DNA of 58,709 nucleotides from Prevotella sp. (lineage in GTDB: Bacteria; Bacteroidota; Bacteroidia; Bacteroidales; Dysgonomonadaceae), in the NCBI GenBank assembly GCA_031285625.1, contig JAITVV010000058.1, positions 1-58,709 on the forward strand. Direction: 5' to 3'. A program made the position numbers and the translations under genes. Positions 23,798 to 50,479 of this stretch are shown piece by piece (the first letter of the stretch is position 1; each line of letters starts with the position of its first letter). A model generated the notes under the pieces. That model was given only the letters and a program-made list of their open reading frames with translations, ran no database searches and was not told the DNA's origin.

Positions 23798-24427
23798 ATG
23801 AAAGCACTGCTGAAAGTTGGATTATTATCTGTATTGTTTTTGTTTGTAACAATGGCATCCGCACAGAATAAAATAGTTACCGTTGGAGTAAGGGCTGGAG
23901 TTAACTTTTCAGGAGTTTCTAATGGTGCTCCCGGAGATAAAACGAAAGTAGGATTCAATTTTGGGATGACTGCAGACTTCAGGCTGTCTGATGAAATGTA
24001 TTTACTTACAGGATTAGAGTATACAGTGAAAGGAACTAAAGGTAATGATTATATCGAGAGCGAGAAAGTTCATTTTATTACAAAGGAAAAGCCTGCTTAC
24101 TTACAACTACCACTTCATGTCGGTTATTTATGGGCGATAAACAGAGATTTTCGACTAATGTTTCATGCTGGTCTTTATGCCGCATATGGAGTAGGCGGTA
24201 AGGTTAATAGAAAGTGGGTTTATGAAGATCGTACAGAGACGGGTAAGATAGACTACTTTGGTGTAGGTGTTAGTAAGTTTGATTGGGGACTAGGAGGTGG
24301 AATAAATGTTGAATATGACAGATATGTTCTAGGATTGGGTTATGACCATGGTCTCAGAAATATTTCTCCTGAATATGGTAATGGACACATCCGAAATTTT
24401 TATATAACTCTTGGATATTTATTTTAA
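23798..24427 (+). CDS. PorT-family outer-membrane beta-barrel protein
   Basis: A 209-residue protein with a signal peptide ending MASAQ and alternating beta-strands. The opening VGVRAGVNFSG and the later LTGLEYTVKG, AYLQLPLHVGY and AAYGVGGK are landmarks of the Bacteroidota OMP_b-brl_2/PorT-like family. The closing GLGYDHGLRNIS...ITLGYLF ends in Phe, as expected for a barrel. It is a paralogue of the gene at 47922. The start at 23798 is used; an ATG four codons earlier overlaps the preceding stop. Confidence 0.82.
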   Translation: MKALLKVGLLSVLFLFVTMASAQNKIVTVGVRAGVNFSGVSNGAPGDKTKVGFNFGMTADFRLSDEMYLLTGLEYTVKGTKGNDYIESEKVHFITKEKPAYLQLPLHVGYLWAINRDFRLMFHAGLYAAYGVGGKVNRKWVYEDRTETGKIDYFGVGVSKFDWGLGGGINVEYDRYVLGLGYDHGLRNISPEYGNGHIRNFYITLGYLF

Positions 24428-46632: not shown

Positions 46633-46920
46633 ATGAATTCAGAATTAATAATTATACGCGAATACTGTATTCAAAATCAGGTAGAACCGGATTTCATTAT
46701 ACAACTTGAAAATGAAGGCCTGATTCAGATAAGTATTATAGAGGAAGAGCGCTATATACATATATCCCAGTTGAAGCATTTGGATCAATATGTACGTTGG
46801 TACTATGATCTGTCTATTAATGTTGCAGGAATTGATGTTATCCAAAACTTGCTGGATAAAATAGATGATATGCAGGAAGAGATATTAAAATTGAAAGAAC
46901 AATTAAAATTGATGGAATAA
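46633..46920 (+). CDS. cbpM: Chaperone modulator CbpM
   Basis: A 95-residue MerR-like protein. An N-terminal REYCIQNQVEPDFIIQLENEGLIQ block resembles the CbpM winged helix, the centre has HISQLKHLDQYVRWYYDLSINVAGIDVI, and a coiled coil closes the protein. CbpM binds the J domain of CbpA and blocks both its co-chaperone and DNA-binding functions. Its stop overlaps the beta-lactamase ATG by one base (TAATG). Confidence 0.88.
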   Translation: MNSELIIIREYCIQNQVEPDFIIQLENEGLIQISIIEEERYIHISQLKHLDQYVRWYYDLSINVAGIDVIQNLLDKIDDMQEEILKLKEQLKLME

Positions 46921-47801
46921 TGAAGAGACTTTATCTTTTTATTTGCATATTCTCTATCAGTGTTATGTCTTTTTCTCAGGTGGAGAGCCTGCGTGACAGT
47001 ATTTCTAAGATACTTAAGGGCAAAAATGCTACAGTTGGGGTTGCCCTTATTGTCGATGGTGAAGATATATTGAAGGTAAATAATGAATTTCATTATCCTA
47101 CACAGAGTGTATATAAATTTCATCTGGCATTGGCAGTTCTCGACTATCTGGATAAGAATAATCTCTCTTTAGATCATCAACTATATATAAAGAAGAGTGA
47201 ATTACTACCAAACACACATAGTCCTATGAGGGATGATTATCCTGATGGTAATATATCTCTGTCTGTTGCAGATATACTTAAGTACACCGTGTCAAAAAGC
47301 GATAATAATGGCTGCGATATTTTATTTCGTTTTGTAGGAGGGCCTGCTAAGGTAGATAAGTATATAAGGAGCCTGGGTATAACAGACTTTGCTATTGCAG
47401 CCACTGAAGAAGAAATGCATGGCCCCTGGGAAGTACAATATACTAACTGGTCTACACCATACACGGCTGCACTGGTTCTGGAGAAATTCAGAACGGGTAA
47501 TATATTACCTGATGTGTACCACGATTTTTTGTGGAAAGTAATAGTTGAAACCACTACCGGAACAAATAAGATAAAAGCGCTTTTGCCTGATGATATACTT
47601 GTAGCCCACAAGACTGGTAGTTCATTCAGAAATGCTGCAGGCTTGAACGCTGCCGAGAATGACATTGCTATTATTCAATTACCAGATGGCAGATACTACT
47701 CCCTGGTTGTATTTGTTGCAGACTCGATGGAAAGCTCCGGTGATAACTGCAAGATTATAGCTGATATATCAAAAGCGGTGTACGATTATCTTACAAGATA
47801 A
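46920..47801 (+). CDS. bla: Class A beta-lactamase, subclass A2
   Basis: A 293-residue secreted enzyme (signal to SFSQ). Active-site motifs are S63-V-Y-K66, S127-D-N129 and K231-T-G233. The omega loop has E163-E-E-M-H167, so the residue at the usual Asn170 position is His, as in PER-type and other subclass A2 enzymes of Bacteroidota (CfxA/CblA group). It hydrolyses penicillins and probably cephalosporins; spectrum cannot be told from sequence. The unusual point is context: it is translationally coupled to cbpM rather than to a resistance element, and no mobile element is near. Confidence 0.92.
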   Translation: MKRLYLFICIFSISVMSFSQVESLRDSISKILKGKNATVGVALIVDGEDILKVNNEFHYPTQSVYKFHLALAVLDYLDKNNLSLDHQLYIKKSELLPNTHSPMRDDYPDGNISLSVADILKYTVSKSDNNGCDILFRFVGGPAKVDKYIRSLGITDFAIAATEEEMHGPWEVQYTNWSTPYTAALVLEKFRTGNILPDVYHDFLWKVIVETTTGTNKIKALLPDDILVAHKTGSSFRNAAGLNAAENDIAIIQLPDGRYYSLVVFVADSMESSGDNCKIIADISKAVYDYLTR

Positions 47802-47816
47802 CAAACGGCTCTCCTT

Positions 47817-47851
47817 TCATCATAACTAAACCACCACTTGTCAAACAGATT
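47817..47851 (+). promoter_or_regulatory. Copy A of 35-base conserved element, upstream of PorT-like gene
   Basis: Thirty of 35 positions match copy B at 50369-50403 (start TCATCATAA, end CAAAYAGATT). It contains ACCACTTGTCAAA. A -7 box TACATTTG (47880-47887) lies 28 bases after its end. It is placed between the beta-lactamase stop and the barrel gene and is a candidate LytTR operator. Confidence 0.65.
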
Positions 47852-47921
47852 TTGGAGAAATGTTAAAAGCTTTCATCTTTACATTTGTATTAGGTATTTA
47901 ACTATTAACTAACAATGAATT

Positions 47922-48521
47922 ATGAAAAAGATGCAAGTAGTTTGGCTATTAATCATGGCACTGTCTTTATTTGGTACAAGTCTTATGACTGCACAGATTT
48001 TACCTGTGAAATTTGGTATAAGAGGAGGGGTGAACTTATCTGATTATGGTGGAGATATGAAAGATGTAAAGTCTGCACTCAGATATCAGGTCGGGTTTAC
48101 TGCAGACCTTGGACTCACAGAAAATATTTACTTACAAACAGGACTTGATTTTTTAACGAAGGGTGGCAAATATAAGCCGGAAACAGGAAAGGAAGTGAAG
48201 TATAATCCTATCTATCTGCAGTTGCCGGTACATGTAGCCTACAAAATGAAGGTTGCCCCCGGCACCAAAGTTGTCGTAAATGCAGGACCTTATGCTGCTT
48301 ATGGACTAGGAGGCAAAGCTAAAGGAGAAGAGAAGGAAGACATATTTGGAAAAGATGGTTTTAAACGATTCGATTTTGGAGTGGGTGCCGGTCTGGGTGT
48401 CGAGTTTGGTATATTAGCCTTAAACGTAGGGTATGACTGGGGCTTAGCGAACATCAGTGAAATAAAAGATGTAAAAGTAAAAAATAAGAGTGCATATATT
48501 ACTCTGGGGCTTAAGTTTTAA
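47922..48521 (+). CDS. PorT-family outer-membrane beta-barrel protein
   Basis: A 199-residue barrel with a signal peptide ending LMTAQ, then FGIRGGVNLSDYGG, LQTGLDFLTKGGKY, YLQLPVHVAYKM, NAGPYAAYGLGGK and a final ITLGLKF. It is a paralogue of the protein encoded at 23798. It lies next to the LytTR response-regulator gene and carries the 35-base element upstream, so it probably belongs to that system's regulon. A terminator follows. Confidence 0.83.
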   Translation: MKKMQVVWLLIMALSLFGTSLMTAQILPVKFGIRGGVNLSDYGGDMKDVKSALRYQVGFTADLGLTENIYLQTGLDFLTKGGKYKPETGKEVKYNPIYLQLPVHVAYKMKVAPGTKVVVNAGPYAAYGLGGKAKGEEKEDIFGKDGFKRFDFGVGAGLGVEFGILALNVGYDWGLANISEIKDVKVKNKSAYITLGLKF

Positions 48522-48539
48522 TAAGGCTATAATCATTAT

Positions 48540-48569
48540 AAAGACCTGACAATGTTCGGGTCTTTTTAT
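48540..48569. terminator. Terminator between the PorT-like gene and the response regulator
   Basis: AAAGACCTGA (48540-48549) pairs with TTCGGGTCTTT (48555-48565, with one G-T pair), followed by more T's. It sits between convergent genes, with the response-regulator stop at its right edge. Confidence 0.75.
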
Positions 48570-49300
48570 TTACTTATAAGGTGTTTATATACAACTGCAT
48601 TTAATAATTCATCCTTTCGTTGTCTCGAAATCGGCAATTCTTTGTCTTTAATAAATATGCGTCCGCCATTGATCAGATTAATATGGTTAACGTTTACCAG
48701 AAAAGATTTATGTATCCTAAAGAATGATTCTTTAGGAAGTATATCTTCGAGTGAAACCATTGTTTGATGAATCGTTAATACTTTGTCTTTAAAGTGTAGT
48801 TTAAGGTAGTTCTGCATACTTTCTACATATAAGATATCTGTACATATGATTTTAACGAAGGAATCACCCTGTCTTACATACATACCTGTGTTTAGATCTT
48901 CATTATTATTCCGTAGATTAAATTGCTCCCGCGCTTTTAATGCAGCTTGAAAAAAACGTTGGAATGTGATAGGCTTTAATAGATAATCAACCACTTGCAG
49001 CCTGAAAGCTTCTAAAGCATATTCCGAATATGCTGTAGTCAGGACTGTGAGAGGTTTATTCTTCATTGACTCCAGAAATTCCAAACCAGTAAGGTGAGGC
49101 ATCTGTATATCCAGAAATATCAGGTCTATAGCATTACGCTTTAAGAAATCAGCTGCCTCTATAGCTGAGGAGCATTCTCCTGCTACTTCCAGAAAGTCAA
49201 GCTTATGGATATGATCGATGATTCCCTCACGAGCAATAGGCTCATCATCAACTACTAAACACTTCATAGGATGGGTAGATTTAGATATTTGTTCAGCCAT
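48566..49300 (-). CDS. LytTR-family response regulator
   Basis: A 244-residue protein. A receiver domain (CLVVDDEP, phosphoacceptor D64 in FLDIQMP, with TAYSEYALEAF and LLKPITFQRF) is followed by a LytTR DNA-binding domain (YVRQGDSFVKIICTDILYVESMQNYLKLHF, ...IHKSFLVNVNHI...LPISRQRKDELL). LytTR regulators bind direct repeats. It is the partner of the upstream histidine kinase, which ends five bases before. Its likely targets are the flanking barrel genes that share a 35-base element. Confidence 0.93.
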   Translation of the reverse strand: MAEQISKSTHPMKCLVVDDEPIAREGIIDHIHKLDFLEVAGECSSAIEAADFLKRNAIDLIFLDIQMPHLTGLEFLESMKNKPLTVLTTAYSEYALEAFRLQVVDYLLKPITFQRFFQAALKAREQFNLRNNNEDLNTGMYVRQGDSFVKIICTDILYVESMQNYLKLHFKDKVLTIHQTMVSLEDILPKESFFRIHKSFLVNVNHINLINGGRIFIKDKELPISRQRKDELLNAVVYKHLISK

Positions 49301-49305
49301 ATTTC

Positions 49306-50328
49306 TTATAACGTAATATTTAGCTGAATAATATAAATCTGTTCAGTTTCTTTTATTTGTAGCTTGTGTTTATTAGGGTAAAGTATTTTGAGGCGTTCTT
49401 TTGCATTCTTCAGGCCTAGTCCCGAACTATCTTTCTTTTTTACCTGTTGTGTCGATTTTGAGTTTTCAACTTCCATGTATAGCGAATCCCCCTGCTGTTC
49501 GAATACAATATTTATATACCCTGTTTCTGATATAGAACGGGAAACATGTTTAAATGCATTTTCAATAAGGGTGAAAAGTATCAACGGCTGTATTTCCTTT
49601 TCGCTATTTTCTATACTCCATTTACAATCAATATTCAGCTCTTTTCCCCACCTCATTTTCTCGACGTCAATAACGTCTTTCAGAAATTGGATTTCTTCAC
49701 CTAGTGTAGAAAATTCTCTTTTCCCATTATATAACTGATAACGGAGAATCTCAGAATATTTGACCAATAAGTGAGATGATAATTCAACATCCTTTTGCAT
49801 TAAAATATAGATGTGATTTAACACATTAAACATGAAGTGCGGGTTTATTTGGTTTTGAAGAATCTGTAATTGTGTCTTTAAATGTTCTTCCTGTAATTTC
49901 GAATGTTCAAAATAAAATCTTATTCCACAAAATCCAAGATTGATAACAACAATAGCAGGCAGAGTCAACATATACTCTACTATGAGAGGATATCTTGTAC
50001 GCATCAATTCAGTTGTTTCAAAAACTTTAATTTCCTCCAACTTTTCGAATGTAGTAAAAGTGATCAGGTGTATAACTCCGGTTAATAATGTAATTATTAT
50101 GAACTGGATTATAAAACGATTCATATTTTTATTCCTAATGGCTTTTGGCAACAAATTGTTGCTTAGATAGAAAGTCAGCAGGGAAGTGGGTAGAAATACG
50201 CTAATTGAAAATAGTATAGCTTCTGGAAAAGAAACCTGAGTTATATACTGAAAAAGGAAGAGACATACCAGCATTATCCAAATCAGGAAAACGAAACCAT
50301 TATAACTTTTTATAAAGAAACCTTTCAT
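49306..50328 (-). CDS. LytS-like sensor histidine kinase
   Basis: A 340-residue membrane kinase. Four hydrophobic segments fill residues ~10-140. The His-kinase domain follows: the phosphorylatable His in INPHFMFNVLNHI, the N-box LIENAFKHVS and the glycine-rich SGLGLKNAKERL. It belongs to the LytS/YehU (HisKA_7TM-less) type used with LytTR regulators. No signal-sensing domain outside the membrane is apparent, so the sensed cue probably enters through the membrane helices. The response regulator follows five bases on. Confidence 0.92.
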   Translation of the reverse strand: MKGFFIKSYNGFVFLIWIMLVCLFLFQYITQVSFPEAILFSISVFLPTSLLTFYLSNNLLPKAIRNKNMNRFIIQFIIITLLTGVIHLITFTTFEKLEEIKVFETTELMRTRYPLIVEYMLTLPAIVVINLGFCGIRFYFEHSKLQEEHLKTQLQILQNQINPHFMFNVLNHIYILMQKDVELSSHLLVKYSEILRYQLYNGKREFSTLGEEIQFLKDVIDVEKMRWGKELNIDCKWSIENSEKEIQPLILFTLIENAFKHVSRSISETGYINIVFEQQGDSLYMEVENSKSTQQVKKKDSSGLGLKNAKERLKILYPNKHKLQIKETEQIYIIQLNITL

Positions 50329-50368
50329 ATTTCAAAATTAGCAATTAATACGATACTCTAATTGTCAT

Positions 50369-50403
50369 TCATCATAAGTAAACTACCGTTTGTCAAATAG
50401 ATT
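50369..50403 (+). promoter_or_regulatory. Copy B of 35-base conserved element, upstream of DUF6268 gene
   Basis: Shares 30 of 35 bases with copy A at 47817-47851. It contains ACCGTTTGTCAAA, close to the AlgR half-site ACCGTTCGTC. A near-consensus -7 box (AATATTTG, 50427-50434) follows 23 bases on. It lies in the divergent gap between the histidine kinase and the DUF6268 gene. Confidence 0.65.
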
Positions 50404-50479
50404 GCCAATAAAGAGTTTAAGACTATAATATTTGTAACGGAAAACCGTCTTAAGCATAAACTTAAATACTATTATAATT

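Follow-up and report, generated by a model that had tools for sequence, protein, structure and literature searches.

Predicted tandem-repeat operators of a LytTR regulator before an outer-membrane barrel gene and a DUF6268 gene in Prevotella sp.

Operators of LytTR-family regulators are normally built from repeats of 8–13 bp set about 12 bp apart (PMC4064291, PMC4847170), and in the operons of LytTR regulatory systems (LRS), tandem repeats lying just 5′ of the −35 element are the layout of positive regulation (PMC6193735). Promoters of Bacteroidota carry a −7 box of sequence TAnnTTTG and a TTTG near −33 (PMC7366714). Here we compare with such systems a LytS/LytTR two-component locus from Prevotella sp., carried on a stretch of 58,709 nucleotides (contig JAITVV010000058.1; hereafter the window). 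An element present in two copies, at 47817–47851 and 50369–50403, precedes a gene of the OMP_b-brl_2 family and a DUF6268 gene respectively, and these two genes flank a LytTR response regulator (RR) and a histidine kinase (HK).

We consider it very likely, from the comparative data presented below, that both copies are operators of the LytTR regulator encoded between them. Control by this regulator had been proposed in an earlier note on the same DNA, and the proposal is supported by comparative evidence: the element recurs in 60 of 80 related LytTR loci, 17 of 18 strict matches adjoin a regulator of two particular clades, and the element precedes 21 of the 23 DUF6268 genes that share a locus with a similar regulator vs 0 of the 12 that do not, apart from one variant at a contig end.

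A tandem repeat conserved beside LytTR regulators

The two segments are identical at 30 of 35 bases (31 of 36 when 47816–47851 is set against 50368–50403), and both lie on the + strand, 5′ of their respective genes. A recount thus agrees with the earlier note on the number of shared bases and on their common orientation to the genes downstream. Ungapped similarity between the copies reaches only 36 nt. From base composition, the expected number of 30/35 pairs across the window is 0.001 on the same strand and 0.001 inverted, or about 0.002 in total, and a merged pattern allowing ≤3 mismatches found no match in any of 100 shuffles of the window. The element pair exceeds chance.

The shared bases of the earlier 35-base element stand, but its description as one box was rejected, as the conserved unit is a 9-12-9 tandem direct repeat with a 21-base period, whose first half-site begins 4 bases further 5′ (47813 and 50365). 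The consensus was derived from sequence 5′ of DUF6268 and OMP genes in related loci, with a period scan that looked for 21 bases only, and reads approximately CCRTTYGTC, 12 bases, CCRTTYGTC, AAA, 3 free bases, ATT(T). A variant with a 22-base period is seen in Bacteroides (L016, L018, L020) and Tannerella (L029). Both the window copies and the profile therefore show the two direct repeats of about 9 bp, some 12 bp apart, that are expected of a LytTR operator.

The 80 loci were fetched by regulator protein sequence alone (the best 80 of 339) and scored with a 39-column profile built from 26 sites. The profile exceeds 14 bits in the 60 loci counted above; the reversed profile and the shuffled loci gave no match above 12 bits, and one each above 10 bits, across the same 80. 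As this profile had learned partly from the loci it scored, another was built from just 14 sites, all of Bacteroidales, and applied to 62 loci of other lineages. It exceeds 14 bits in 52 of them, against none for the reversed profile and a mean of 0.3 (maximum 2) for column-permuted profiles. The element is thus kept beside orthologous LytTR loci, where the earlier note had allowed that it might be missing. Records with sites include Dysgonomonas, Prevotella, Parabacteroides, Pedobacter, Mucilaginibacter, Chitinophaga, Sinomicrobium and Myroides, and the element also stands beside regulators of 59–76% identity in other families and orders. The full window layout (operator–OMP_b-brl_2, HK-RR, operator–DUF6268) recurs in a genome from another family of the same class (G269), and two further genomes (G049, G340) have the same HK-RR with one operator before the HK and one before DUF6268, the OMP gene being absent. 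The target families are DUF6268, OMP_b-brl_2, OMP_b-brl_3 (L169 and L170, where it heads the HK-RR) and Acyl_transf_3, so that, judged by their Pfam names, the predicted targets all appear to belong to the envelope or a membrane.

Within the window's genome (4.84 Mb), the pattern with ≤3 mismatches has exactly three matches, and its control has none. The third copy (G000:C30:27085–27123) has an OMP_b-brl_2 gene on one side and a divergent, paralogous HK-RR pair (HK 45%, RR 61%) on the other. Because this paralogous locus bears the same operator, the two regulators may share targets. Given this copy and those in other genomes, the defined operator of the local envelope regulon envisaged earlier holds up, but its confinement to the locus does not. 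There are 11 LytTR matches in the genome, two of which belong to the operator-bearing loci; the other nine have no site of their own above 10 bits in the stretches read with their flanks, the strong site in L110 being the paralogous locus's operator, some 6.7 kb away from that region's other LytTR gene.

A scan of 25 genomes of the genus, using a slightly different pattern (Y for N), gave 10 matches in five genomes and none for the control, with nine of the 10 within 5 kb of an operator-clade regulator. Outside the genus, in samples of 395 and 396 genomes, all eight matches with ≤2 mismatches fall within about 3.4 kb of such a regulator. In total, 17 of the 18 strict matches (≤2 mismatches) have a regulator from one of the two operator-bearing clades within 5 kb. 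In thirteen of these it is a member of the clade to which the window's regulator belongs, and in four (G010, G371, G658, G729) a member of the other. This adjacency is far from chance, because the stretches up to 5 kb from any of the 11 LytTR genes make up only about 2% of the window's genome. With no match for the reversed pattern in the 25 genus genomes or in 395 phylum-wide genomes, we do not see the element occurring commonly where LytTR is lacking, the other adverse outcome that had been foreseen. All five matching genomes of the phylum-wide sample belong to the window's own class. At ≤3 mismatches the class-wide pattern is near noise, with 38 rows (three from the window's genome) vs 18 reversed matches in 396 genomes; the adjacency counts use ≤2-mismatch matches only.

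On a tree of 103 LytTR regulators, operators within 4 kb concentrate in the two clades (28 of 38 rows in the first, 40 of 45 in the second), and the sole operator-marked row outside them, L004_8078p, is a second LytTR adjoining the first. Among the ten unmarked rows of the first clade, L099 is the paralogue with its operator in L110, four have the 22-base variant, and L007, L011 and L030 have less than 1.2 kb of sequence upstream. Four of the five unmarked rows in the second clade have less than 2.3 kb upstream, the site being expected at about 2.3–2.5 kb, and the fifth (L033) scores 16.0 bits, just not above the cut. Operator divergence correlates with regulator divergence (Mantel r 0.40 for the LytTR domain and 0.50 for the receiver).

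The DUF6268 genes provide a natural control. Of the 35 distinct genes compared, 23 have in their locus a regulator with ≥55% identity to that of the window; 21 of these carry the operator no more than 250 bases away, with a 21-base period in 18 cases and a 22-base period in 3. None of the 12 genes without such a regulator has a 21-base-period site; one, in L091, has a 22-base site, and its contig stops 185 bases 5′ of the gene, leaving the neighbour out of view. Since DUF6268 genes that lack this regulator also lack the 21-base site, the operator follows the regulator and not the barrel. In an even sample of the class, full-strength DUF6268 matches (>300 bits) are found in 4 of 296 genomes, the window's own included, all other matches being below 71 bits; of these four, the own genome and G049 have both regulator and operator. 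The 26 distant DUF6268 loci that were fetched contain no site above 14 bits. The remaining two of the four full-strength genes, in L209 and L210, are part of a DUF6268-HK-HK-RR cluster with a different, Pfam-confirmed LytTR regulator (35% and 33%) and no operator.

Promoter geometry and alternative explanations

In 43 of 86 distinct sites a TTTG ends exactly 30 bases past the operator; 50 sites have it at 29–31 bases, and a further 19 have TTTA at 30. The 86 sites include 13 from loci of the noisy class-wide scan (L143–L167, among which L148 and L149 are strict matches), and these were retained. The ATTT that terminates the operator falls about 20 bases before the −7 box, i.e. at the −33 position, and the operator is placed just 5′ of −35/−33. 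The DUF6268 promoter of the window fits this conserved geometry, at 31 bases. From the TTTG at a fixed 30 bases and the tandem repeats just 5′ of −33, we infer that the regulator likely activates the barrel genes from these operators. The spacings of 28 and 23 bases to the −7 boxes TACATTTG and AATATTTG given in the earlier note are correct in the sequence; the two copies differ because copy A has only the poor box CATCTTTA at the conserved position. At the orthologue of the operator A promoter in L003, GATATTTG is found at 30.

At divergent sites, the kinase side has a perfect TAnnTTTG 32–34 bases from the operator in 15 of 18 cases, vs 1 of 68 other operators, and the kinase start codon comes exactly 4 bases past the box in 15 of the 17 divergent sites with a TAnnTTT(G/A) box. 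This 4-base spacing suggests a leaderless or near-leaderless HK-RR mRNA, and that of the window is probably leaderless. In a start-site map of B. thetaiotaomicron, two sensor-kinase mRNAs (BT_3967 and BT_2166) are among the rare cases with 5′ untranslated regions of <10 nt (PMC7366714). Besides 50326–50340 (−) in the window, the kinase-side box pattern is seen in L003, L005, L006, L012, L013, L014, L017 and L019, and further in L022, L023, L031, L076, L084 and L097.

Four loci (L009, L010, L021, L028) have the operator immediately before the His_kinase gene of an HK-RR pair, and in Mucilaginibacter and G010 it precedes the gene heading the HK-RR, which is Acyl_transf_3 in both scanned cases (L034, L127). 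These placements make positive feedback likely in all of these loci. The window system probably also regulates itself, whether positively or negatively, as the spacing between operator B and the divergent HK-RR promoter is a fixed one.

In the mechanism that we propose, the kinase would phosphorylate the LytTR regulator, two molecules of which would bind the tandem half-sites; the bound regulator would recruit primary-sigma RNA polymerase, and this recruitment would switch on the DUF6268 and OMP barrel genes. The targets point to an envelope state as a possible signal.

Several observations weigh against this reading. On the starred branches of the regulator tree, the presence of the operator takes no fewer than 8 changes, so the tree does not show that it arose cleanly once, and L025 and L032 lie inside the regulator clade with no recognisable site in 6 kb upstream. 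Both exceptions among the 23 DUF6268 genes are from Myroides (L015 and L028), where DUF6268 is preceded by a weak site (11.1 and 5.8 bits) and the HK by a better one (22.9 and 32.8 bits). A strong orphan site (L128:8869–8907, in G018:C142; 43.9 bits, TTTG at 30), the tenth of the genus matches, has no LytTR gene in 18 kb. Operator A itself lacks a TTTG at 30, having CATCTTTA there and the TTTG of TACATTTG at 36. Finally, the LytTR domain beyond the receiver gives a partial r of −0.15, i.e. no domain-specific signal, and coevolution of LytTR domain and operator was rejected because the correlation, although it exists, is not specific to that domain.

It is unlikely, in our estimation, that the LytTR regulator instead binds the operator as a repressor, or represses the HK-RR while activating the barrels. 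Operator B does have divergent promoters on its two sides and adjoins the promoter region of the HK, where repression would be possible, but the operator ends at −33 and leaves the −7 box downstream of it uncovered, the TTTG being at exactly 30 nt in half of all sites. In addition, the four loci with an element directly before the HK resemble LytTR positive feedback loops (PMC6193735). We think it very unlikely that the shared sequence is the core promoter of a dedicated sigma factor in place of a response-regulator site: a fixed distance to the −7 box and a conserved ATTT at the 3′ end would suit this explanation, but the conserved part is the 9-12-9 repeat 5′ of −33, the boxes at −7 and near −33 are already like those of a primary-sigma promoter (PMC7366714), and 17 of the 18 strict matches adjoin the two LytTR clades. 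We give practically no credence to a recent promoter duplication without regulatory meaning. Two similar segments only 2.5 kb from each other might suggest one, but the element also accompanies diverged regulators from other families and orders, the two copies are followed by genes of different Pfam families and the ungapped match is so short. Both of these last explanations were rejected.

For a LytS/LytTR group that is so far uncharacterised, the proposed reading supplies an exactly defined, conserved operator together with its promoter geometry and a predicted regulon. It also ties DUF6268, an unstudied family, to a signalling system, making its function approachable via one regulator. More tentatively, and rather less likely than not, DUF6268 might be a dedicated LytTR partner in a class-wide envelope circuit, in which one tandem operator, at set distances from two divergent promoters, would let a LytTR dimer switch on the barrel and its own leaderless HK-RR together, the barrel possibly feeding back on, or forming part of, the sensor.

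Genes of the locus and neighbouring observations

The regulator combines a receiver (PF00072, 7.5e-20) with a C-terminal LytTR domain (PF04397, 3.2e-20), and its neighbour encodes a LytS/His_kinase-type kinase (PF06580, 6e-21). The Pfam assignments (OMP_b-brl_2, Response_reg + LytTR, His_kinase, DUF6268) bear out the earlier description of two barrel genes flanking a LytS/LytTR pair, where the DUF6268 product is presumed to be an outer-membrane barrel (Table 1). The HK immediately precedes the RR in the majority of related loci tabulated. A PDB search (best 60 of 183) gave mostly receiver-domain matches; ComE and a single LytTR domain were also among them, and these results were taken no further.

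Table 1 Features of the LytS/LytTR locus in the window, with operator scores from the position weight matrix (PWM)
Feature	Position	Strand	Details
Operator A (predicted)	47813..47851	+	Half-sites CCTTTCATC 47813–47821 and CCACTTGTC 47834–47842; spacer 12; −33-like ATT(T) 47849–47852; PWM 40.5 bits
Candidate −7 boxes, barrel gene	47874..47887	+	CATCTTTA 47874–47881 (conserved position) or TACATTTG 47880–47887, 6 bases later
OMP_b-brl_2 (PF13568) outer-membrane beta-barrel gene, 199 aa	47922..48521	+	Pfam
LytTR response regulator, Response_reg + LytTR, 244 aa	48566..49300	−	Pfam; proposed binder of operators A and B
LytS-like histidine kinase, His_kinase PF06580, 340 aa	49306..50328	−	Pfam
−7 box of HK-RR operon, TAATTTTG	50333..50340	−	4 nt before HK ATG; 32 nt from operator B
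Operator B (predicted)	50365..50403	+	Half-sites TCATTCATC 50365–50373 and CCGTTTGTC 50386–50394; spacer 12; ends in −33-like ATT; PWM 42.1 bits
−7-like box of DUF6268 promoter, AATATTTG	50427..50434	+	Its G 31 nt past operator B
DUF6268 (PF19783) protein gene, 300 aa	50480..51382	+	Pfam; outer-membrane barrel presumed

Genes for MerR_2 and Beta-lactamase2 (46633–47801, +) lie directly 5′ of operator A, with a gap of 12 nt from stop codon to operator, and the same pair is also found near this LytTR in L003, L119 and L129. A second OMP homologue in the window (23822–24424, +), 38% identical to the operator-linked OMP, has no operator above 12 bits. The orphan operator of G018:C142 lies 5′ of a 134-aa open reading frame (ORF), a 217-aa ORF without a Pfam match and a 1597-aa ORF. 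In L129:1438–5326 (G018:C90), three tandem kinase-like genes lie by one LytTR regulator, and the operator is 5′ of a 56-aa ORF with a hydrophobic start. DUF6268 genes also occur beside other LytTR subfamilies without this operator (L131–L133, L135, L177, L178, L209, L210), and in L133 the DUF6268 gene is followed by OEP and HlyD efflux-type genes.

Comparison with described LytTR systems

The operators of AgrA, VirR, PlnC/PlnD and YpdB are alike in consisting of two imperfect direct repeats of 8–13 bp, about 12 bp apart (PMC4064291, PMC4847170). They differ from those described here in regulator subfamily, targets and half-site sequence, and the promoter here is of the Bacteroidota −7/−33 type. 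The AlgR core CCGTTCGTC and algD-RB3 CCGTTTGTC of P. aeruginosa (PMC4064291) are identical to the two half-sites of the DUF6268 operator in L003 and to half-site 2 of operator B, a likeness by half-site only. The core of copy B, previously called close to the AlgR half-site, in fact equals algD-RB3 (PMC4064291). AlgR sites are not necessarily spaced repeats, unlike the tandem seen here, and the match was not counted as evidence, as a 9-mer recurs often by chance.

In the LRS-like operons of Bacteroides, TGTA-19-TATCTTTG promoters lie 11 bp downstream of the repeats, and LRS pair the LytTR regulator with a membrane inhibitor protein (PMC6193735), whereas we see a receiver and an adjacent kinase. 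The Bacteroides LRS repeats TCCGGTATTCA/ACCGGAAATCA have an 11-bp spacer, and the window operators a 12-base spacer. LRS are not known to use a kinase or receiver; with a receiver domain and a neighbouring kinase according to Pfam, the window system falls outside the LRS.

YpdA/YpdB of E. coli, likewise a LytS/LytTR pair, has a single target gene, and its tandem GGCATTTCAT site has a 21-base period (PMC4847170). It differs in that its target is the pyruvate-induced yhjX and not outer-membrane barrels. The yhjX product is a transporter. In the literature searched on LytTR in Bacteroidetes/Bacteroides, on LytTR/AlgR sites and on DUF6268, the operator is undescribed as far as titles and the beginnings of abstracts go, most subscription papers lying outside this scope. 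Set beside these systems, the predicted regulon is new, and the layout of its operator is the canonical LytTR one that is already known.

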